Of a DNA stretch of 50,184 nucleotides, positions 2,439 through 49,568 are shown piece by piece (positions within the stretch are counted from its first letter, which is position 1; the number at the start of each line of letters is the position of its first letter). Below the pieces are notes generated by a model, which did not search any database, was not told where the DNA came from, and worked only from the letters and a program-made list of their open reading frames with translations. The position numbers and the translations under genes are program-made. Origin of the DNA: Chlorobiaceae bacterium. GTDB lineage: Bacteria > Bacteroidota > Chlorobiia > Chlorobiales > Chlorobiaceae. The DNA is taken from positions 1-50,184 of the forward strand of contig JAAXXR010000010.1 of assembly GCA_013334335.1 (NCBI GenBank), read 5' to 3'.

Positions 2439-3506
2439 ATGCTGAGCCGAGTCGCCGAATCACTCTTCTGGATGAGCCGCTACTTCGAACGCGCTGAAAA
2501 CACGGCCCGCTTCCTTGACGTCAACTTCAACCTGCTGCTCGACCTGAACAGCATCGCCAGCGTTGATCATCCGAACTACTGGAGCCCGCTGATCATGGTC
2601 ATGGCCGATCCGGAGGATTTCAAGCGGCACTACAAGGAGTACAGCGCCCAGAACGTGACCGACTACCTGGTGTTCAACCGCCAGAACACCAGTTCGATCA
2701 TCTCCTCGATCGGCATGGCCAGGGAAAACGCACGGAGTATCATCGAGAGCATCTCGAGTGAAATGTGGGAACAGTTGAACAATCTCTACCATTTCCTGCA
2801 GAGCGTCACGCCCCAGCAGGTGCACAACGATCCCTACAGTTTTTACAAGGAGATCAAGAACGCCTCACACCTCTTCCAGGGCATCACCGACAACACCTTT
2901 TCCCGCAACGTTGGCTGGGACTTCGTCCAGATCGGCAAGTATCTCGAACGCGCTGACAACGTCGCGCGGCTCATCGACGTCAAGTATCACATGCTGATGC
3001 CGAAGCGCAGCCAGCACCTCGACATCGTGAAGAACTCGGTGGACATCATCCAGTGGATGGCCGTACTGAAAAGCTGCAGCGCCCTGGAGGCCTTCAGAAA
3101 AGTCTACCTGTCCAAGATCGACCCGGAAAACATCCTCAGCTTCCTCATCCTCGACCGCACTTTTCCGCGCAGCATCACCTTTTCGATCTGTGCGGCCCAG
3201 GAGGCCCTCTGGAGGATCTCCGGCAGTTCGCTGCACCGCTATGTGAACAACGTCGACAGGCTCATCGGCAAAATGGACGCCGAACTGAGTTACACCACCG
3301 TCGATGACATCTACAAGCAGGGGGTGCATGAGTTCCTCGAGGAGATCGAGCATGGGCTGATCAGAATTGGAGAACAGCTACATCTCCTATATTTTGCGTA
3401 TCATACACCAAAGATTGAGCCCCAGGACGCTTCGGAAGGGCTCTCGTTCACCGGTGTCGCAGGAGGCCGGGCGAACTGGAGCCAGTCACAGCAGCAGCAG
3501 CAATGA
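2439..3506 (+). CDS. Alpha-E domain protein (DUF403)
   Basis: The 355-residue product starts with MLSRVAESLFWMSRYFERAENTARFLDV-type sequence, which is the signature of the all-helical alpha-E family, and keeps the second internal copy (GKYLERADNVARLIDV near residue 165). Family members almost always sit beside the circularly permuted ATP-grasp and transglutaminase genes, as here, and are thought to act in the same unknown peptide- or amide-forming pathway. The last residues are glutamine-rich (five Q encoded by CAG/CAA codons), a low-complexity tail that is not part of the fold. No catalytic role has been assigned to the family. Confidence 0.88.
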   Translation: MLSRVAESLFWMSRYFERAENTARFLDVNFNLLLDLNSIASVDHPNYWSPLIMVMADPEDFKRHYKEYSAQNVTDYLVFNRQNTSSIISSIGMARENARSIIESISSEMWEQLNNLYHFLQSVTPQQVHNDPYSFYKEIKNASHLFQGITDNTFSRNVGWDFVQIGKYLERADNVARLIDVKYHMLMPKRSQHLDIVKNSVDIIQWMAVLKSCSALEAFRKVYLSKIDPENILSFLILDRTFPRSITFSICAAQEALWRISGSSLHRYVNNVDRLIGKMDAELSYTTVDDIYKQGVHEFLEEIEHGLIRIGEQLHLLYFAYHTPKIEPQDASEGLSFTGVAGGRANWSQSQQQQQ

Positions 3507-4383: not shown

Positions 4384-6858
4384 TCACCGCCTCCTGATGC
4401 CCTCCCGGACCTTGCCGAGAAGGGCCGGCACCGTGAACGGTTTCCGGATGAAATTCCCACCTCCCCGAATCATGCCCTGCCGGGCGGCCACCTCCGCTGA
4501 GAAGCCCGACATGAACAGCGTCCTGAATCCCGGGCTGATCAACATGAGTTGCTCGGCAAGCTGCTGTCCGTTCATGTCGTTCATGACGATATCGGTGAGC
4601 ACCAGGTCGATCATCCCGCGCCACTCCACGGCGAGGTGGACCGCATCGGACGGTGTAGAGGCCTGAAGCACCCTGTAGCCGTCCTGCTCGAGAATCATCG
4701 CGCAGAGCCGCAGGGTTTCCGGCTCTTCGGCGACGACCATGACCGTCGGACTCGCCAGGAGCGGGTCGTTGAGTGGTTGCCGCGGCTGCCCGTCAGGCTC
4801 CTCCCCGGAAAGCAGCGGCAGGTAGATACGGAATACACTCCCATTGCCCGGTTCACTGGCGAAATCGATGAAGCCCCGGTTCTGCCTGATGATGCCGTAA
4901 ACGCTCGAAAGCCCCAGGCCTCGACCATTTCCGATCGGCCTGGTGGTAAAGAACGGTTCAAAAATATGGATCCGATCATCCGATGAGATGCCGTGGCCCG
5001 TGTCGGCAACCGACAGTTCCACAAAATCGCCGGGCTCGCTGCTGACGAAGATCTCCTCTTCGCGGGAATCGACATGCAACCGGCGAGTGGCGATGGTGAT
5101 CGTTCCGGTGCCGTCCATTGCGTCCGAGGCATTCATGCAAAGGTTGGCAAGCACCTGGGCGATCTGGGCCGGATCGATGCTGACCCTGCATTCCCGGGTT
5201 TCCGGCACCCAGGATATGGAGATCCCATTGCCGAGATGCGGCTGCAGCGTGGCAATCGAGTCCTCCACCGCCCTGTTGAGGTCGAGTTCCCTGGGCAGGG
5301 CAAGCTGCCTTCTGGCGAAGGCCATCATCTGGTCGGTAAGTTCTGCCGATCGTTCGGCAGCCGTGCGTATCTCCTCGAGACTGTTTCTGACCGACGTATC
5401 GACCAGGTCGCTGGACAGGGCGATCTCCGCATGCCCAAGCATCACCTCAAGCAGATTGTTGAACTCGTGCGCGATGCCGCCGGCGAGCTGTCCCACCAGC
5501 TCCATCTTCTGGATCTGCATCATCAGCGACTGCACCCTGCTTTCGGATTGCTCCGCACGCTGACGCTCGACAATGTCCCATACCAGGTCGGCGAGGCTCC
5601 CCACCCATCCGGCATCGTCCGCATCGTAGCCGCCCGGCTTGTTGCCGAGCACCATCACCGCCGCGACGCCGCTCGGATTCAGGACCGGCACAGTCAGCGT
5701 GTCCTGTACGAATGGACGGTGCCCGGAGGGCAATCCGTCCGGATGCGAGGTATCGCGACTGTTGTGGATCACGAACGTTTTTTTCAGGACAGCCTCCTCC
5801 CAGAAGGCCACGACATCCATCGGATGGTGTACGCCCTCCTGTTCCATGTCAGCCATGTCACGCCGGATTCGGCCGGACCATATGCGTGTCGGGAGTTCGT
5901 GGAGGGAGGGGTCGAGCACCTGGAAAAAACCGAACGTACTGCCGGTGGCGCGCTCCGCCTCGTCAAGTGCCGACCGGATGAGCTCTTCGGCAGATGCAGT
6001 GCAGGACATCTCGAGAAGATTCAGCCGGAAGGTCGTCAGGGTTTCGAAACGCTTGCGCTTCGTCAGGTCGTAGATCAACCCGATGAAGCCCTCTATCCGG
6101 TCGTCCCGATAGGCGTGGAGCCGTATTTCGATATGACGGACTTCACCGTCCTTCCTGGAGATCGTGAACTCCCGGGAACATGAGGTTCCGGGATCGGCAA
6201 GGACCTCGTCGAACATGGCCCTGACCTGGCTCGACTCCACGTTGTCCAGGAAGCGGACGAATGGGCGCCCCGGGAAATCGCCGTACGAATGGCCGGACAA
6301 GTTCTCGATGGCCCTCGACATGAACACCACGTTTCCGTTGATGTCGGTAATGAATACAGGGGCATCGATCTGTTCGGTGATAGAACGGAAGCGCTGTTCA
6401 CTCAGCCACAATGCCTCCTCTGCCCGCTTGCGGCCGGAAATATCGATACCGATACCCGACAGGCAGGGCATGCCGTCGTTCATGACCTTGCTCACGGTAA
6501 TGAGGAACCAACGGTACTCGGGCCCGCCCTTGAGTAGAAGCCGGATCTCAACGCTCGCTTCGACATCCTTGTCGAGAACGTGCTTCATCTTTCTGGTCAC
6601 CAGGGCGAGATCGTCGGGATGAACGATCGTTCGGGCATCGATCGACGACATCTCTGCCTCGGACTTTCCGACAATGCGGTCCCTGAGGCAGGAGTTCCAG
6701 TGCGCAAAACGCCCGTCGGCATGAAGCATGTAGACCGTTCCAGGAAAGCTTTCAATGAAGTTCCTGCAAACACGGCACGCCTCCGGGTCCAGATGAACCT
6801 CTGCGCCGGATGATTCACGTGGGCAAACAAACCTGTCTTTTTCCTGCATGGGGGGCAT
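4384..6858 (-). CDS. Hybrid sensor histidine kinase PAS-PAS-GAF-HisKA-HATPase-REC
   Basis: The 824-residue soluble hybrid kinase has two PAS domains (about residues 30-145 and 155-270) and a GAF-type domain (about 280-435). The HisKA segment carries the phospho-acceptor in GGIAHEFNN at His464. The HATPase domain has its N box near 572, DTGHGI near 619 and GRGLGL near 645. A C-terminal receiver has its phospho-acceptor Asp756 and conserved lysine in RKPF near 806. No membrane segment is visible, so the signal is probably cytoplasmic. Three cysteines near the N terminus (C12, C28, C31, the last two as CRVC) could bind a metal, but this is speculation. There is no adjacent output gene. The promoter would lie in the 229-bp gap shared with the divergent tgt. 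Confidence 0.9.
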   Translation of the reverse strand: MPPMQEKDRFVCPRESSGAEVHLDPEACRVCRNFIESFPGTVYMLHADGRFAHWNSCLRDRIVGKSEAEMSSIDARTIVHPDDLALVTRKMKHVLDKDVEASVEIRLLLKGGPEYRWFLITVSKVMNDGMPCLSGIGIDISGRKRAEEALWLSEQRFRSITEQIDAPVFITDINGNVVFMSRAIENLSGHSYGDFPGRPFVRFLDNVESSQVRAMFDEVLADPGTSCSREFTISRKDGEVRHIEIRLHAYRDDRIEGFIGLIYDLTKRKRFETLTTFRLNLLEMSCTASAEELIRSALDEAERATGSTFGFFQVLDPSLHELPTRIWSGRIRRDMADMEQEGVHHPMDVVAFWEEAVLKKTFVIHNSRDTSHPDGLPSGHRPFVQDTLTVPVLNPSGVAAVMVLGNKPGGYDADDAGWVGSLADLVWDIVERQRAEQSESRVQSLMMQIQKMELVGQLAGGIAHEFNNLLEVMLGHAEIALSSDLVDTSVRNSLEEIRTAAERSAELTDQMMAFARRQLALPRELDLNRAVEDSIATLQPHLGNGISISWVPETRECRVSIDPAQIAQVLANLCMNASDAMDGTGTITIATRRLHVDSREEEIFVSSEPGDFVELSVADTGHGISSDDRIHIFEPFFTTRPIGNGRGLGLSSVYGIIRQNRGFIDFASEPGNGSVFRIYLPLLSGEEPDGQPRQPLNDPLLASPTVMVVAEEPETLRLCAMILEQDGYRVLQASTPSDAVHLAVEWRGMIDLVLTDIVMNDMNGQQLAEQLMLISPGFRTLFMSGFSAEVAARQGMIRGGGNFIRKPFTVPALLGKVREGIRRR

Positions 6859-7087: not shown

Positions 7088-8221
7088 ATGAAATTTTCCG
7101 TCATCTCGAACGACCATCGCTCCGCAGCTCGTTGCGGCATGCTCTCTACCGATCATGGCGACATCCCGACTCCGATCTTCATGCCGGTAGGCACCAGGGC
7201 CAGTGTCAAGTCGGTCGAACCCGTGGAACTGAAGGAACTCGACGTCAGGATCATCCTGGCAAACACTTACCATCTCTTCCTGAAGCCCGGCAACAGCATC
7301 CTTGCCAAAGCGGGTGGCATCCACCGCTTCATGAACTGGGACCGTCCACTCCTGACCGACAGCGGCGGCTACCAGGTCTACTCGCTCTCCGAGCTCCGGA
7401 AGATCAGCGAGGAGGGGGTGACCTTCAAATCGCATCTCGACGGCTCCCGCCTCAACTTCACCCCGGAAAACGTGGTCGACACCCAGCGGATCATCGGCAG
7501 CGACATCATGATGCCGCTTGACGAATGTCCTCCGTGGCCGGCTGAAAAGGAGTATGTCCGAAAGTCCGGCGAGCTGACCATCCGCTGGGCCGAACGGGCC
7601 AGGAGGCGCTTCCTTGAAACCTCGCCGCACTACGGCTACCGGCAGTTCCAGTTCGGTATCACCCAGGGAGGCACCTACGAGGACCTGAGAGCTCAATCGA
7701 GCCGTGAACTTGTCGACCTCGATTTCGACGGTTACGCCGTCGGTGGCATGGCCGTCGGAGAGCCTGCCGAAGAGATGTACCGCATGCTCGAACTTTCGAA
7801 CACCCTGCTTCCCGAATCGAAGCCGCGCTACCTGATGGGGGTCGGCACTCCGTCCAACATCCTCAACGCCATCGAGCGGGGCGTCGACATGTTCGACTGC
7901 GTGATTCCGACTCGCGAAGGGAGAAACGGACGGGTCTACACCCGTTCCGGCAAGATCAACCTGCGCTCGGCGAAGTACGCCGAAGACTTCCGTCCCATCG
8001 ACGACGGGTTCGACAACCACGTCTGCCGCAACTACTCCCGGGCCTACATCCGACACCTGCTGAACGTCGGGGAGATCCTCGGCCTCAAGCTTTGTACGCT
8101 CCACAACATATCGTTCTACCTCTGGCTCACCTCCACCGCGCGCAAGCACATCCTGGAAGGAAGCTTCCTTGAGTGGAAGGAGGCCTTCCTCACGGAGTTC
8201 AACCGCAATGACCAGCCATAA
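7088..8221 (+). CDS. tgt: Queuine tRNA-ribosyltransferase
   Basis: The 377-residue enzyme exchanges guanine 34 of Tyr/His/Asp/Asn tRNAs for the queuosine precursor preQ1. Family motifs are present: ANTYHLFLKPG near residue 58, LTDSGGYQVYSL near 90, GGMAVGE near 222 and DCVIPTREGRNGRVY near 275. The zinc site is unusual. The Cys-x-Cys-x2-Cys motif that normally precedes the RNYSRAY segment reads F308, N310 and C313 here, so only one of the three cysteines remains with the partner His339. It overlaps rimO by 14 bp, so the two are probably co-transcribed. A QueD-family gene lies elsewhere in the window at 49140-49568. Confidence 0.93.
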   Translation: MKFSVISNDHRSAARCGMLSTDHGDIPTPIFMPVGTRASVKSVEPVELKELDVRIILANTYHLFLKPGNSILAKAGGIHRFMNWDRPLLTDSGGYQVYSLSELRKISEEGVTFKSHLDGSRLNFTPENVVDTQRIIGSDIMMPLDECPPWPAEKEYVRKSGELTIRWAERARRRFLETSPHYGYRQFQFGITQGGTYEDLRAQSSRELVDLDFDGYAVGGMAVGEPAEEMYRMLELSNTLLPESKPRYLMGVGTPSNILNAIERGVDMFDCVIPTREGRNGRVYTRSGKINLRSAKYAEDFRPIDDGFDNHVCRNYSRAYIRHLLNVGEILGLKLCTLHNISFYLWLTSTARKHILEGSFLEWKEAFLTEFNRNDQP

Positions 8222-9536
8222 CCGCACCTCACCAGGTCCGGTGCTCTTCATGCTCAGCCTCGGCTGCTCGAAGAACACCGTCGACAGCGAACGCATCCTG
8301 GCCCAGGCTACCGCCAGCGGAATCACGCTGACCGACGATGCCGACAAGGCGGAGATCATCCTCATCAACACCTGCGGATTCATCGAGGACGCCAAGGAGG
8401 AGTCGATCGCGGAGACCCTGGCGGCCATCGACAAAAAGCAGCAGGGACTCGTGCGGGAGGTGTACGTCATGGGCTGCCTTGTCGAACTCTACCGGCGTGA
8501 GCTTGCCGAGGAGCTGCCGGAGATCGACGGCTTTTTTGGCACCCGCGAGCTGCCGGTGCTGCTGGAGGCCATCGGGGCGAAATACCGGGAAGAGATCGCC
8601 GACACGAGGCTCCTGCTCACCCCGGCGCACCACGCATGGCTCAAGATCTCCGAGGGATGCAACCGTCGCTGCTCATTCTGCTCGATCCCGAAAATCAGGG
8701 GGCCCTACGCGAGCCAGCCGGTCGAGCAGCTGCTGCGGGAGGCTGCGGAACTGCAGCGCAAAGGGGTCAGGGAGCTGAACCTGATCGCCCAGGACATCAG
8801 CCTCTACGGCTACGACCTCTACGGCAGGACGGCCCTCAACGAACTGGTACTCCGCCTCTCCGACATGGCGTTCGACTGGATCAGGCTGCTCTACGCCTAT
8901 CCGCTCAACTTCCCGCTGGAAGTGGTCGACACCATGCGCCGGCGTGACAATGTCTGCAACTACCTCGACATGCCGCTGCAGCACATCAATGGCCGCATCC
9001 TGAACTCCATGCACCGCGGCGTCGGCCGGGAAGAGACCGTACGCCTCATCGACGACATCCGCCACCGGAACCCCGACATCAGGCTCCGCACCACCATGAT
9101 CGCCGGCTACCCGGGCGAAACGCGCACCGAATTCGATGAGCTGCTCGAGTTCGTGCGAAGCACCCGCTTCGACCGGCTCGGCTGCTTCCCCTACCGGCAC
9201 GAGGAGCATGCGCCGTCGTTCTCGCTCGAAGACACGGTGAGCGACGAGGAGAAGGAGATGCGCGTCGGGGAGCTGATGAAGCTCCAGGAGGAGATCTCCG
9301 CCGAGAAGAACCGGGTGTTCGAAGGCACAACGCTCCGGGTGATCATCGACGAGGTCGACGGTGGAACGGCATACGGACGCACCGAGTACGATGCCCCCGA
9401 AGTGGACAACGAGGTCATCCTCGACACCGGGACCGGAAGCATTGAAACCGGAAGCTTCCACATGGCCGGGATCACTGACTCCACAGCCTACGAACTGCAC
9501 GGCTCGATCATCCCGGCCGCCAACGACCGGGGATGA
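8208..9536 (+). CDS. rimO: Ribosomal protein S12 methylthiotransferase RimO
   Basis: The 442-residue radical SAM enzyme methylthiolates an aspartate of ribosomal protein S12. The N-terminal MTTase domain has LGCSKNTVDSE and NTCGFIEDAKEES. The radical SAM core has CNRRCSFCSIPKIRG (C-x3-C-x2-C), and a TRAM-like domain ends the protein. FCSIPKIRG and the downstream PLQHI element are typical of RimO rather than MiaB. The ATG at 8208 overlaps the end of tgt and is preferred over the ATG at 8169, because the extra 13 residues are non-conserved and lie wholly inside tgt. Confidence 0.93.
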   Translation: MTSHNRTSPGPVLFMLSLGCSKNTVDSERILAQATASGITLTDDADKAEIILINTCGFIEDAKEESIAETLAAIDKKQQGLVREVYVMGCLVELYRRELAEELPEIDGFFGTRELPVLLEAIGAKYREEIADTRLLLTPAHHAWLKISEGCNRRCSFCSIPKIRGPYASQPVEQLLREAAELQRKGVRELNLIAQDISLYGYDLYGRTALNELVLRLSDMAFDWIRLLYAYPLNFPLEVVDTMRRRDNVCNYLDMPLQHINGRILNSMHRGVGREETVRLIDDIRHRNPDIRLRTTMIAGYPGETRTEFDELLEFVRSTRFDRLGCFPYRHEEHAPSFSLEDTVSDEEKEMRVGELMKLQEEISAEKNRVFEGTTLRVIIDEVDGGTAYGRTEYDAPEVDNEVILDTGTGSIETGSFHMAGITDSTAYELHGSIIPAANDRG

Positions 9537-22304: not shown

Positions 22305-23342
22305 ATGACACCACAAACCGGCTCCTGCCTGCCTGGCGCAGGTTCAGTACCGCACTCCCTGCGCGAGGAGTGCTTCACGCCAACGTTCGAGGCCGCCCTC
22401 GCCAGCCATGGGGTGAGCCCGCTTTACGCGACAGGCGTCGGAATCCTGCAGGTCAACACCGGATACCGCTGCAACCTGCGCTGCACCCACTGCCATGTGG
22501 ACGCCCATCCGGAACGCACCGAGGTGATGAGCCGTCAAACCATGAACCAGTGCGTCGAGGTGCTGAAGTCGAACCCGATCCGGACGCTCGATATCACCGG
22601 AGGCGCACCGGAGATGAATCCCGATTTCAGGTGGTTCGTCGAAACTGCGAGGAGCGCCAGTCCGGATCTGGAAATTCTGGTCAGAAGCAACCTCACGCTG
22701 CTCGCCGCTGACAACGCGTTCCGCGACATCCCGGAATTTCTCAGGGAACACCGCGTGAACCTTGTTGCCTCCTTGCCCTGCTACACCAGGGAAATCGTCA
22801 ACCGGCAGCGCGGCGACGGGGTTTTCGAACGTTCGATCGAAGCCCTGAAAAAGTTCAACGCTCTCGGTTACGGCTTCCCTGACAGCCCGCTGGAACTGAA
22901 CCTCGTCTACAATCCGACAGGCCCATGCCTTCCAGGATGCCAGCATCAGCTTGAAGAGGAGTACCGCAAGCAGCTCGACCAACAGTTCGGCATCCGTTTC
23001 ACGCGACTCTACACGATCACCAACATGCCGATCAACCGCTTTCGCCAGTCCCTCATCGACGCTGGCGGTTACTGCTCATACATGGAGTTGCTTGCGGCGA
23101 ACTTCAACCCGGCGGCCGCAGGTGCGGTCATGTGCCTCGACACGATCTCCGTACGCTGGGACGGCAAGCTCTTCGACTGTGATTTCAACCAGATGCTCGA
23201 CCTGCCGGTCAACCCCTCGGCACCGCTCCACATCGGCGAGTTCGACCGGGCAAGGCTGATCGGCCGAAGGATATCCACCGGCCAGCACTGCTTCGGCTGC
23301 ACTGCCGGGGCAGGTTCGAGCTGCCAGGGCAGCCTGCTGTGA
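22305..23342 (+). CDS. arsS: Arsenosugar biosynthesis radical SAM protein ArsS-type
   Basis: The 345-residue radical SAM enzyme has its cluster cysteines at C56, C60 and C63 (CNLRCTHCHVD). The protein ends in a Cys-rich region, CFGCTAGAGSSCQGSLL, characteristic of the ArsS family. Some relatives carry selenocysteine there; this one has cysteine and a normal TGA stop after LL. ArsS-type enzymes act in arsenosugar formation on a dimethylarsenic-derived substrate. The next two genes are both of the families that accompany it (TIGR04282 and TIGR04283). Start ATG 22305, 4 bp after crtQ. Confidence 0.85.
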   Translation: MTPQTGSCLPGAGSVPHSLREECFTPTFEAALASHGVSPLYATGVGILQVNTGYRCNLRCTHCHVDAHPERTEVMSRQTMNQCVEVLKSNPIRTLDITGGAPEMNPDFRWFVETARSASPDLEILVRSNLTLLAADNAFRDIPEFLREHRVNLVASLPCYTREIVNRQRGDGVFERSIEALKKFNALGYGFPDSPLELNLVYNPTGPCLPGCQHQLEEEYRKQLDQQFGIRFTRLYTITNMPINRFRQSLIDAGGYCSYMELLAANFNPAAAGAVMCLDTISVRWDGKLFDCDFNQMLDLPVNPSAPLHIGEFDRARLIGRRISTGQHCFGCTAGAGSSCQGSLL

Positions 23343-46604: not shown

Positions 46605-47405
46605 CTATTTCCTCTTCTCCGGAAACACCAGCCGCTGGTTCATGTCGAGCGCAGGGGCCGGGGTCTCAGTCCGGCCGACGATATGCGCCGGCACGCCGGC
46701 AACGGTGTAGTGCGCCGGGACGTCGTCAAGAACGACGCTCCCTGCGCCGACCTTCGCCCCCTCGCCGATCACGATGTTGCCGAGAATCTTGGCCCCGGCG
46801 CCGATCATGACCGACCGTTTCACCTTGGGGTGGCGATCTCCGATCTCCTTGCCGGTGCCACCGAGCGTCACTTCGTGCAGCAGCGACACATCGTCATCAA
46901 CCACGGCGGTTTCACCGATGACCAGCCCGGTCGCATGGTCCAGCAGGATACCCTTGCCGATGACTGCCGCCGGATGGATATCCACGGCAAAGATCTCGGA
47001 AATGCGATTCTGCAGGAAATAGGCCAGCGAATGTCGCCCGTTCGACCAGAGCCAGTGTGCCAGCCGGTAGGACTGCAGGGCCTGGTAACCTTTCAGAAAC
47101 AGCATGATTTCGAAAAAGTTGACCGCCGCCGGGTCGCGCTGCTGGGTGGCCACCATATCGCACACGGCGAACTCGATGGCTTCCGGACTCATCCGGTAGA
47201 AATTTTCGAAAAGCTCCTGTAACACCTGGGGAGGAAAGTGCTTCGAGCCAAGCTTGACCGAGAGCAGCATGGCAAGAGCCGGAGCGAATTCATCGTAACG
47301 GATGATGTGCTGTTCGAGAAACATGCGGATTTCCGGTTCACGTTCGCACTCCCGTCTCGCTTCGCCGACAATTGCCGACCACAGGTTACTGATGTCGATT
47401 CCCAT
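46605..47405 (-). CDS. cysE: Serine O-acetyltransferase
   Basis: The 266-residue enzyme makes O-acetylserine for cysteine synthesis. An N-terminal helical region (about 1-130) precedes the left-handed beta helix with hexapeptide repeats from about residue 140. DIHPAAVIGKGILLDHATGLVIGETAVV and HEVTLGGTGK carry the active-site His and Asp. The C-terminal tail differs from the Ile-ending tail that binds CysK in some species. No cysK is adjacent. Confidence 0.92.
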   Translation of the reverse strand: MGIDISNLWSAIVGEARRECEREPEIRMFLEQHIIRYDEFAPALAMLLSVKLGSKHFPPQVLQELFENFYRMSPEAIEFAVCDMVATQQRDPAAVNFFEIMLFLKGYQALQSYRLAHWLWSNGRHSLAYFLQNRISEIFAVDIHPAAVIGKGILLDHATGLVIGETAVVDDDVSLLHEVTLGGTGKEIGDRHPKVKRSVMIGAGAKILGNIVIGEGAKVGAGSVVLDDVPAHYTVAGVPAHIVGRTETPAPALDMNQRLVFPEKRK

Positions 47406-47752
47406 TGATGATGTAATACGGCGTCATGCCATGGTTAATGATAGCTGCAGGACGGCCCCGTTCGACAACGATAGCCTTGCTGCCGGTACAGGTACCGTAA
47501 AGGCGCTCCTGAACGTTCCGGCAGCAGTTGAATTTATAAAAAAACGCCATCATTGCCCACGGAGACCTACATACCGGCCTGCTGAATGGCATCATGACCG
47601 GGGGGGGTCAGGATTTCGGCATTTGTACTTTATCGGTAAAATTCTTAACATCGATTTAACATTGCGCGCTCCCAATCTGGCAGTTCATCGCTCAGCAGCA
47701 AGTTCATCAGGAGTAACGCAGTCCTTTTTCCCCATTCAAAAAGGAGTTACCC
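47406..47752. other. Gene-poor region upstream of small peptide and radical SAM gene
   Basis: About 350 bases hold the cysE upstream region and the lead to a small peptide ORF. I see no convincing gene. An 8-G run followed by TCAGG (47600-47612), then ATTTCGGCATTTG, resembles part of the arm of the palindrome at 17413-17477 and could be a decayed copy. Short ORFs on both strands lack ribosome binding sites. Confidence 0.4.
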
Positions 47753-47827
47753 ATGGACCCCCAAGGCATATCCATTGCCCGGTCAACAATCGCATTGACT
47801 GAATCTTCCGCTCCCCCAAAGGTGTAG
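47753..47827 (+). CDS. Candidate 24-residue peptide upstream of radical SAM/SPASM gene
   Basis: This ORF is too short for normal gene calling. It has a textbook AAGGAG site 6 bases before the ATG, better than most genes in the window. The peptide reads MDPQGISIARSTI then ALTESSAPPKV and has no cysteine. It ends 95 bp before a radical SAM gene on the same strand, a layout seen for RiPP precursor and maturase pairs. Whether it is translated, or a substrate, is unproven. It could be a leader peptide. Confidence 0.4.
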   Translation: MDPQGISIARSTIALTESSAPPKV

Positions 47828-47922
47828 ATCCCCATTCCCATACGAACCGGCCGCCTGCCCGTTTCGCATGGGGCACCTCTTCGACTGTACGTTTTTTCGT
47901 CGACTGTTCAACCCGGAACGCA

Positions 47923-49017
47923 ATGACCGCCCGATCTGAAGACATCCCGTTCATGAGCACGCTTGGACTCCTGCTCACTTACCGCTGCACCATTTTCTGC
48001 CCGCACTGCCTGGTTGAAGCCGGGCCGGAACGCAAGGAGAAAATGGCGCTCGGCAGTGCCTTCGGCTGGATCGATGAAGCTGCCGGCTACCGCAATGGAA
48101 CGATCAGGTGCATCGAACTGACCGGCGGAGAACCGTTCTACGACCTCCAGACCCTTGCGCTGATATCCGACCATGCCATGAATGCAGGACTTTCCGTATC
48201 CGCAATCACCAATGCCGGATGGGCCGAAACCCTCGAGCAGGCGATTCTCACCCTGAACGAACTGCCCGCAATCCGGAAAATCTCCATCAGCACGGATGTC
48301 TATCATCAGCAGTTCATTCCCGTAGGGTATGTCCATAACGCCATCATCGCCGCCGAACTTCTCGGACGAAAGTATGACATTGCCGTCACCACCGACAACG
48401 AACATGACGAACGGTACCGGTCGATCATTGCTCGTCTCGAAAAGTTCGTCGAACCCGGCCGCATCAGGAGCACGGCCACCGTCCCCGCAGGAAGAGCCAT
48501 GAAACAGGCATCCGCCCTGAACCGCCGGCATTCGCCGGAACCCTTCATGGCAGCATGTACCGCTTCAAGCGTTCCGGTCATTCTCCCCGACGGCCGGGTC
48601 ATGGCATGCGCAGGGCCGATGCTCACCCGTCAAGACTCCTGCCCGTTGTGCCTCGGCAACCTCCGGAAGGAGTCTCTCGCAAACGTGCTCGATCGGGCGG
48701 AGATCAACCCGCTGCTGCACCTGCTCAGGGTCTGGGGGCCTCACCGGATGGTCTCGCTGCTTCGAGACCGAGGCCATGGGGCACTGCTCCCGAAAGAGTA
48801 CCTCTGCGGCAGCGGCTGTGACATCTGCACCAAGCTGCTGTCCGACCGGCGTCTGGCGAATCTGCTCACCAGCCTCCTCGACGAACAGAAAAACAGGAAC
48901 GTCATCGCCTACGCGAGGATGCAACGACTCAAAGAGCCCGAGATGGTTCAGCGTTGCCATCTCGACGGATCGGACATGATCGACGCTGCCAACGCCCTGC
49001 TCGTGCCAGACGCCTGA
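47923..49017 (+). CDS. Radical SAM protein with SPASM-like Cys-rich C terminus
   Basis: The 364-residue product has the radical SAM cluster C22-x3-C26-x2-C29 (RCTIFCPHC) and the GGEP motif near residue 68. The C-terminal part has cysteines at 212, 229, 240, 243, 295, 299 and 302, with the PDGRVMACAG and LGNLRKESL patterns of SPASM domains that hold extra clusters. SPASM enzymes mostly modify peptides, so a RiPP maturase role is possible. I do not recognise a named family. It is not the 7-carboxy-7-deazaguanine synthase QueE, which is much shorter. The ATG at 47923 follows GGAACGC. Confidence 0.85.
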   Translation: MTARSEDIPFMSTLGLLLTYRCTIFCPHCLVEAGPERKEKMALGSAFGWIDEAAGYRNGTIRCIELTGGEPFYDLQTLALISDHAMNAGLSVSAITNAGWAETLEQAILTLNELPAIRKISISTDVYHQQFIPVGYVHNAIIAAELLGRKYDIAVTTDNEHDERYRSIIARLEKFVEPGRIRSTATVPAGRAMKQASALNRRHSPEPFMAACTASSVPVILPDGRVMACAGPMLTRQDSCPLCLGNLRKESLANVLDRAEINPLLHLLRVWGPHRMVSLLRDRGHGALLPKEYLCGSGCDICTKLLSDRRLANLLTSLLDEQKNRNVIAYARMQRLKEPEMVQRCHLDGSDMIDAANALLVPDA

Positions 49018-49139: not shown

Positions 49140-49568
49140 ATGCTCATTTCAAGGAAAATCGAGATCGACTACGGCCATACCCTGCCGAACAGCTTTTCAT
49201 TCTGCAACCAGCTTCACGGTCATCGGGGCGTTATCGTCGCCACCGTCCAGGGGCCGCTCAATGATCTCCCTGGAGACGCTGAAGAGGGCATGGTCATGGA
49301 CTTCAAGTTCCTGCACCGCACCATGGTCGAGCAGATCCACGACAAGCTCGACCACGGGTTCGCGATCTGGAAGAACGACCACGAAGACCTCGAGTTCATC
49401 ATGAAACGCAACAAGCGGGTGCTCGTCACCGACGAACCACCGACCGCCGAGTGCCTTGCCAAATGGGCCTTCAACCAGTTGAGCAGCCACCTCCCCGAAG
49501 GCGTCACCCTCAAGAACCTGCGCTGGTACGAAACCCCGAACAACTGGGCCGACTACGACGGCGAGTGA
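49140..49568 (+). CDS. queD: 6-Carboxytetrahydropterin synthase QueD-family protein
   Basis: The 142-residue protein matches the PTPS/QueD fold. Zinc-binding histidines lie in IDYGHT near residue 13 and in CNQLHGHRG near 22-30, where the cysteine of the CxxxHGH motif is the catalytic one typical of QueD. Glu in RWYETPNNW near 131 anchors the pterin. It would supply the queuosine pathway that ends in tgt at 7088. The start is an ATG 22 bp after the last A/T-rich region. Confidence 0.85.
   Translation: MLISRKIEIDYGHTLPNSFSFCNQLHGHRGVIVATVQGPLNDLPGDAEEGMVMDFKFLHRTMVEQIHDKLDHGFAIWKNDHEDLEFIMKRNKRVLVTDEPPTAECLAKWAFNQLSSHLPEGVTLKNLRWYETPNNWADYDGE

Follow-up and report, generated by a model that had tools for sequence, protein, structure and literature searches.

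A radical SAM enzyme of EpeE-like fold in a Chlorobiaceae genus is probably the remaining half of a small-protein maturase cassette

EpeE (YydG) of Bacillus subtilis is a radical SAM peptide epimerase (TIGR04078; PDB 8ai1-8ai6), whose operon, epeXEPAB, also contains genes for the precursor, a protease and an ABC exporter. Ribosomal peptides are likewise the substrates of the sactipeptide maturases AlbA, SkfB and CteB, which are radical SAM enzymes with C-terminal auxiliary cluster sites, and of the proteusin epimerases PoyD and OspD, which have the SAM cluster only, plus a C-terminal recognition element (PMC8326336). The hydrogen donor of EpeE is Cys223 (PMC5682303).

The window, a stretch of 50,184 nucleotides from a Chlorobiaceae bacterium, encodes a radical SAM (rSAM) enzyme of 364 amino acids (47923..49017, + strand). 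Its gene is flanked on the left by a serine acetyltransferase gene (cysE-like, 46605..47405, - strand; name read from the translation) and on the right by a QueD-like 6-pyruvoyl-tetrahydropterin synthase gene (PTPS, 49140..49568, + strand; PF01242). A preliminary description of this DNA had proposed a RiPP-like pair, in which the enzyme would modify the product of a short ORF of 24 codons (47753-47827, + strand), and all of the elements named there were located as described: the ORF encodes the Cys-free peptide MDPQGISIARSTIALTESSAPPKV, follows a Shine-Dalgarno-like AAGGAG (47741..47746, + strand) and lies 95 nt upstream of the rSAM ATG at 47923. The supposition that the QueD-like gene is unrelated was also supported, because the PTPS gene is present in 20 of the 21 genomes of the window's genus, with or without the enzyme; a QueD/QueE-type partnership was ruled out on the same ground. 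In congeners lacking the enzyme, cysE and PTPS are directly adjacent (~300 nt apart), so that the enzyme and its leader represent an inserted (or elsewhere lost) unit. Elsewhere in the window, another rSAM gene (22305-23342), which we read as ArsS-like (arsenosugar synthesis), is followed by two glycosyltransferase-like ORFs.

The rSAM ORF contains the radical SAM core (PF04055) with the cysteines C22xxxC26xxC29, and further cysteines at positions 63, 212, 229, 240, 243, 295, 299, 302 and 345. The preliminary description counted seven extra C-terminal cysteines in SPASM-like spacing, which overstates the case. The extra cysteines are there, and four of them (212, 229, 299 and 302) are the only ones invariant across the family; the SPASM model (PF13186) scores 21.0 bits against a gathering cut-off of 21.5, and C240/C243 are missing from the closest relative, Chlorobium G023. 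Among NCBIfam models the best match is the YydG/EpeE peptide epimerase (TIGR04078), at 74.2 bits well below the cut-off of 300, and the sole solid relatives in the PDB are EpeE structures. For the AlphaFold model of the enzyme (pLDDT 86.7), the nine top PDB structural matches are all EpeE (TM 0.66-0.70 by query length), at about 19% identity. The enzyme thus shares with EpeE the predicted overall fold, the SAM-cluster motif CxxxCxxC (C22/C26/C29) and four C-terminal cysteines (C212/C229/C299/C302), the probable ligands of one auxiliary [4Fe-4S] cluster. A small-molecule substrate, as for viperin, MoaA or ArsS, would fit the weak matches of models for these three across the rSAM core and a structural match to viperin, but the latter is weaker than that to EpeE, which clearly outranks all other matches in both sequence and fold, and members of the family go together with a small-protein gene, as set out below; we regard such a substrate as very improbable.

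The likeness to EpeE does not extend to its catalytic Cys. At the column of EpeE Cys223 the window enzyme has Ala230, its congeners have Ala, Ser or Met, nearly all other near relatives, including the partner-bearing family, have Ile, and Cys never occurs in the near family; an EpeE-like Cys pair at this site is found in the distant Chlorobiales relatives G022, G041 and G102. According to the alignment, Asp210 of EpeE, the residue altered in PDB 8ai6, is not retained in the window enzyme either. Since the catalytic Cys223 is absent, the window enzyme is not an EpeE-type epimerase by the known mechanism, although it may resemble EpeE in the steps as far as radical formation. With the sactipeptide maturases the enzyme shares the rSAM core, the C-terminal auxiliary cluster sites and a link to ribosomal peptides, but it is without an N-terminal extension that might serve as recognition domain, and SkfB gives only a weak profile match. 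The proteusin epimerases PoyD and OspD, also rSAM enzymes acting on ribosomal precursors, were undetected among the relatives of the window enzyme.

To place the enzyme, 98 genomes of the order (Chlorobiales) were searched for a close orthologue, which was found in the window genome, in its congeners G004, G006, G007, G017 and G019 (together 6 of the 21 genomes of the genus), in Chlorobium G023 and, as a degenerate copy, in G085. A wider scan of the genome collection yielded 28 strong loci, 22 of which lie outside Chlorobiaceae, in archaea (including Archaeoglobus, Methanoperedens and Bathyarchaeota) and in bacteria (Nitrospirae, Deltaproteobacteria, Chloroflexi, Acidobacteria, Nitrospinota, Ignavibacteria and Bacteroidota). 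The window enzyme is 58% identical to that of G023, its nearest relative outside the genus, and 36-45% identical to members outside Chlorobiaceae, which establishes its homology to this family. The distribution is patchy: the cassette was present in 3 of 230 genomes within one class, in a sample of 394 genomes of that phylum to which the window belongs it occurred in Chlorobiaceae only, and a search of viral contigs revealed no relatives of the enzyme.

All 22 loci outside Chlorobiaceae, as well as that of G023, contain a small-protein gene of one family (63-190 aa) immediately upstream of the enzyme, usually ending at most about 130 nt before it (~530 nt in L085), and the degenerate G085 copy is the only relative outside the window's genus without this partner. 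In G023 the partner has 75 aa, and one of the other pairs comes from a Thermodesulfovibrionales genome (L072). The partner consensus is approximately IPxELxKxFxxxxRIVxK...GIPVPxxLL...FDxxxxPK, and a profile of the family detects the partner at all these loci and also at two that did not enter its construction (L133, E=4.5e-20; L086, E=3e-9). No Pfam or NCBIfam model matches the partners, which are unlike YydF, and the AlphaFold prediction gave no usable fold (pLDDT 52.6). The small proteins are under purifying selection (codon-position differences of, for example, 12/7/30), and most of them are Cys-free. Two loci, L069 and L070, have tandem partner genes (5391-5621 and 5653-5889; 5393-5602 and 5700-5909) before one rSAM gene, and in Bacteroidota (L076, L078, L079, L083 and L084) the partners are about 120-160 aa long with a seemingly doubled motif region. 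The preliminary description was therefore right about the kind of system, since genes of this EpeE-fold family nearly always follow a small-protein gene, and wrong about the particulars, since that partner is something other than the 24-residue ORF. The small protein and the EpeE-fold rSAM enzyme form a new family without prior characterisation, of which the window represents an orphaned branch; the open-access literature, which was covered for TIGR04078, for epipeptides and for rSAM peptides of archaea or Chlorobi, yielded no description of the pair.

Besides the enzyme and the small protein, the neighbourhood comparison showed no widely shared gene. In contrast to epeXEPAB, the loci share no exporter, ABC transporter or protease gene next to the cassette, and an operon of that type is not found. 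The absence of such genes, for a partner conserved from archaea to Bacteroidota, sets the pair apart from peptides of the antibiotic type and is a hint that it works inside the cell.

In the window genome (G000) and the five congeners, the partner is absent from both the locus and the genome. Two profiles, of nine and 22 rows, found the positive controls and no match in these genomes, which rules out a partner elsewhere in the genome, short of a strongly diverged one in trans that could have escaped both. The leaders of the six congeners contained no trace of it in any frame, including read-through of stops, and tblastn with the G023 small protein gave only noise outside G023. In the enzyme tree, the six congeners form one clade (support 100/100) whose sister is the partner-bearing G023 (97/82), so that a single loss of the partner on the branch of the six congeners is the simplest history. 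An encoded precursor, as would define a RiPP locus, was thus not found for the enzyme, the 24-aa ORF being unconserved and the partner family absent, although a different sort of precursor may be encoded in trans.

The short ORF itself was examined for codon-level conservation across the relatives, the check suggested in the preliminary description, and no constraint was seen. ORFs of its kind (AAGGAG or AGGAGG plus an ATG start, 15-60 aa) occur at chance frequency: the window has one, and shuffled windows have 1.75 on average. Above chance is the recurrence of a ribosome site with its ATG in a similar position, 159-224 nt 5' of the enzyme, in all six enzyme-bearing congeners, where the equivalents of AAGGAG are AAAAGGAG, AAAAGGAA, AAAAAGGGG or AAAACGAG. 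What follows these signals varies, with peptides of 24, 30, 26, 26, 45 and 6 residues; in G004 a stop is found at codon 7, yet the enzyme gene is open through every invariant motif. Within the clade of G019, G017 and G004, the ungapped codon-position differences are 7/10/9, 9/8/9 and 8/10/13, and the codon-position test detected no protein-level constraint, with little power given six short sequences. The peptides of the window and G006 are marginally similar (p=0.03) and those of G019 and G017 are alike, as expected of close relatives; other pairs mostly align no better than shuffled sequences. Local alignments and a profile search revealed no resemblance of the 24-aa ORF to the partner-family proteins, and the same approaches, with stops read through, gave no sign that the ORF is a partner cut short.

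The recurring start signals, the similarity between the window and G006 peptides and the maintenance of the enzyme would fit a rapidly evolving precursor, confined to this lineage, that took over from the old partner as the enzyme's substrate. Such a precursor, however, would have to be a peptide that lacks codon-position constraint, changes length from species to species, is cut short in G004 next to an open enzyme gene, mostly aligns no better than shuffled sequence between subclades and does not resemble the partner family. We consider it improbable, and the proposal that the 24-residue ORF encodes the substrate is not borne out: the preliminary description had named disruption or lack of conservation of the ORF, in relatives with the rSAM gene, as grounds for refuting the pair, and this is what is seen. 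Some function of the short ORF is possible given its start signals and the window/G006 similarity, and its sequence features make it probable that it is a leader ORF, or what is left of the start of the lost gene, and not the substrate.

Conservation of the leader is confined to islands. The most conserved (0.91) is a promoter-like block, TTGTAC - 17 nt - TAACAT (47623..47651, + strand), which is missing from congeners without the enzyme and was undetected by a simple sigma-70 scan; it is followed by the ribosome site (0.73) and a block immediately 5' of the rSAM start, CGTCGACTGTTCAACCC (47898..47914, + strand; 0.78). The frame of the CGTCGACTGTTCAACCC block relative to the rSAM gene shifts between relatives, so the block is not coding for the enzyme. 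The body of the short ORF is poorly conserved (0.2-0.45), only its start signals being retained. An inverted repeat, CCTTTTT (47723-47729) and AAAAAGG (47738-47744; whole element 47723..47744, + strand), could pair over the ribosome site. Expression of the enzyme might therefore be controlled by translation initiation at the short ORF or by base-pairing between CCTTTTT and the ribosome site, a reading to which the conserved islands within an otherwise diverged leader, and the occurrence of the repeat in some form in all six leaders, lend some weight. However, stem pairing does not exceed that of shuffled sequences in four of the six leaders (p>0.1), so that the repeat is weakly supported, covariation is little, and Rfam returned no family, only two archaeal snoRNA models far under their gathering scores on the opposite strand inside the gene. 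Such regulation is a tentative proposal, compatible with the loss of the partner gene and a refinement of that explanation.

The explanation we favour, and consider probable, is that of a small-protein maturase cassette whose partner was lost in the window's genus, the short ORF being a leader or leftover and not the substrate. On this view the cassette once comprised two genes, the first for a small substrate protein and the second for an EpeE-fold rSAM maturase, and what remains of it lies within or close to the cysE-PTPS interval in six species of the genus. In the other lineages, SAM bound at C22/C26/C29 would most likely give rise to a 5'-deoxyadenosyl radical that most likely abstracts hydrogen from the conserved GI(P/W)-P-LL...F(D/E)...PK region of the small protein, and the auxiliary cluster at C212, C229, C299 and C302 would take up an electron. 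Because the EpeE Cys donor is missing and the partners are mostly Cys-free, EpeE-type epimerisation is unlikely, as is the thioether formation of the sactipeptide maturases; a cross-link or a desaturation would be our guess.

The partner gene would have disappeared once the genus had separated from the lineage of Chlorobium G023, with the enzyme kept under selection. Purifying selection is seen on the enzyme among the six species (dN/dS 0.15-0.41), so that, with the partner lost, its substrate in the genus today is probably the product of a gene at another locus. Decay of the enzyme following partner loss would be in line with the small number of genomes of the genus that have it (6 of 21), the loss of the C-terminal tail in G004 and the G085 relative without CxxxCxxC and without partner, but all motif residues are intact and dN/dS is low in six diverged species, and we think decay unlikely. 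The G085 gene itself (L061, ~7248-8315) has kept the C-terminal cysteines and, by its sequence, is a pseudo-rSAM protein or a decaying gene.

The genus would thus provide a natural case of a maturase outliving its substrate gene, and the pairs in other lineages, whose enzymes retain the EpeE fold without the catalytic Cys, bear on new peptide chemistry. We put forward, as a conjecture that could well prove wrong, that the pair constitutes a conserved and so far undescribed system for modifying peptides, spread through bacteria and archaea, with non-EpeE chemistry and a conserved intracellular product rather than an antibiotic, and that in the window's genus the enzyme was retargeted to a new substrate after loss of its partner.

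The distant relatives with the Cys pair have neighbours of their own. In G102, a member of the Chlorobiaceae, the YydG-like rSAM gene (L062, 3278-4372) lies directly 3' of a gene for an Os1348-type NHLP-clan precursor (2910-3191; 29 bits against a cut-off of 40), which makes this pair a candidate epimerase-type cassette. In the Chlorobiales genomes G041 (L037, 1832-3115) and G022 (L038, 7780-9419), the YydG-like rSAM genes follow genes for unannotated proteins of 98 and 189 aa, respectively.
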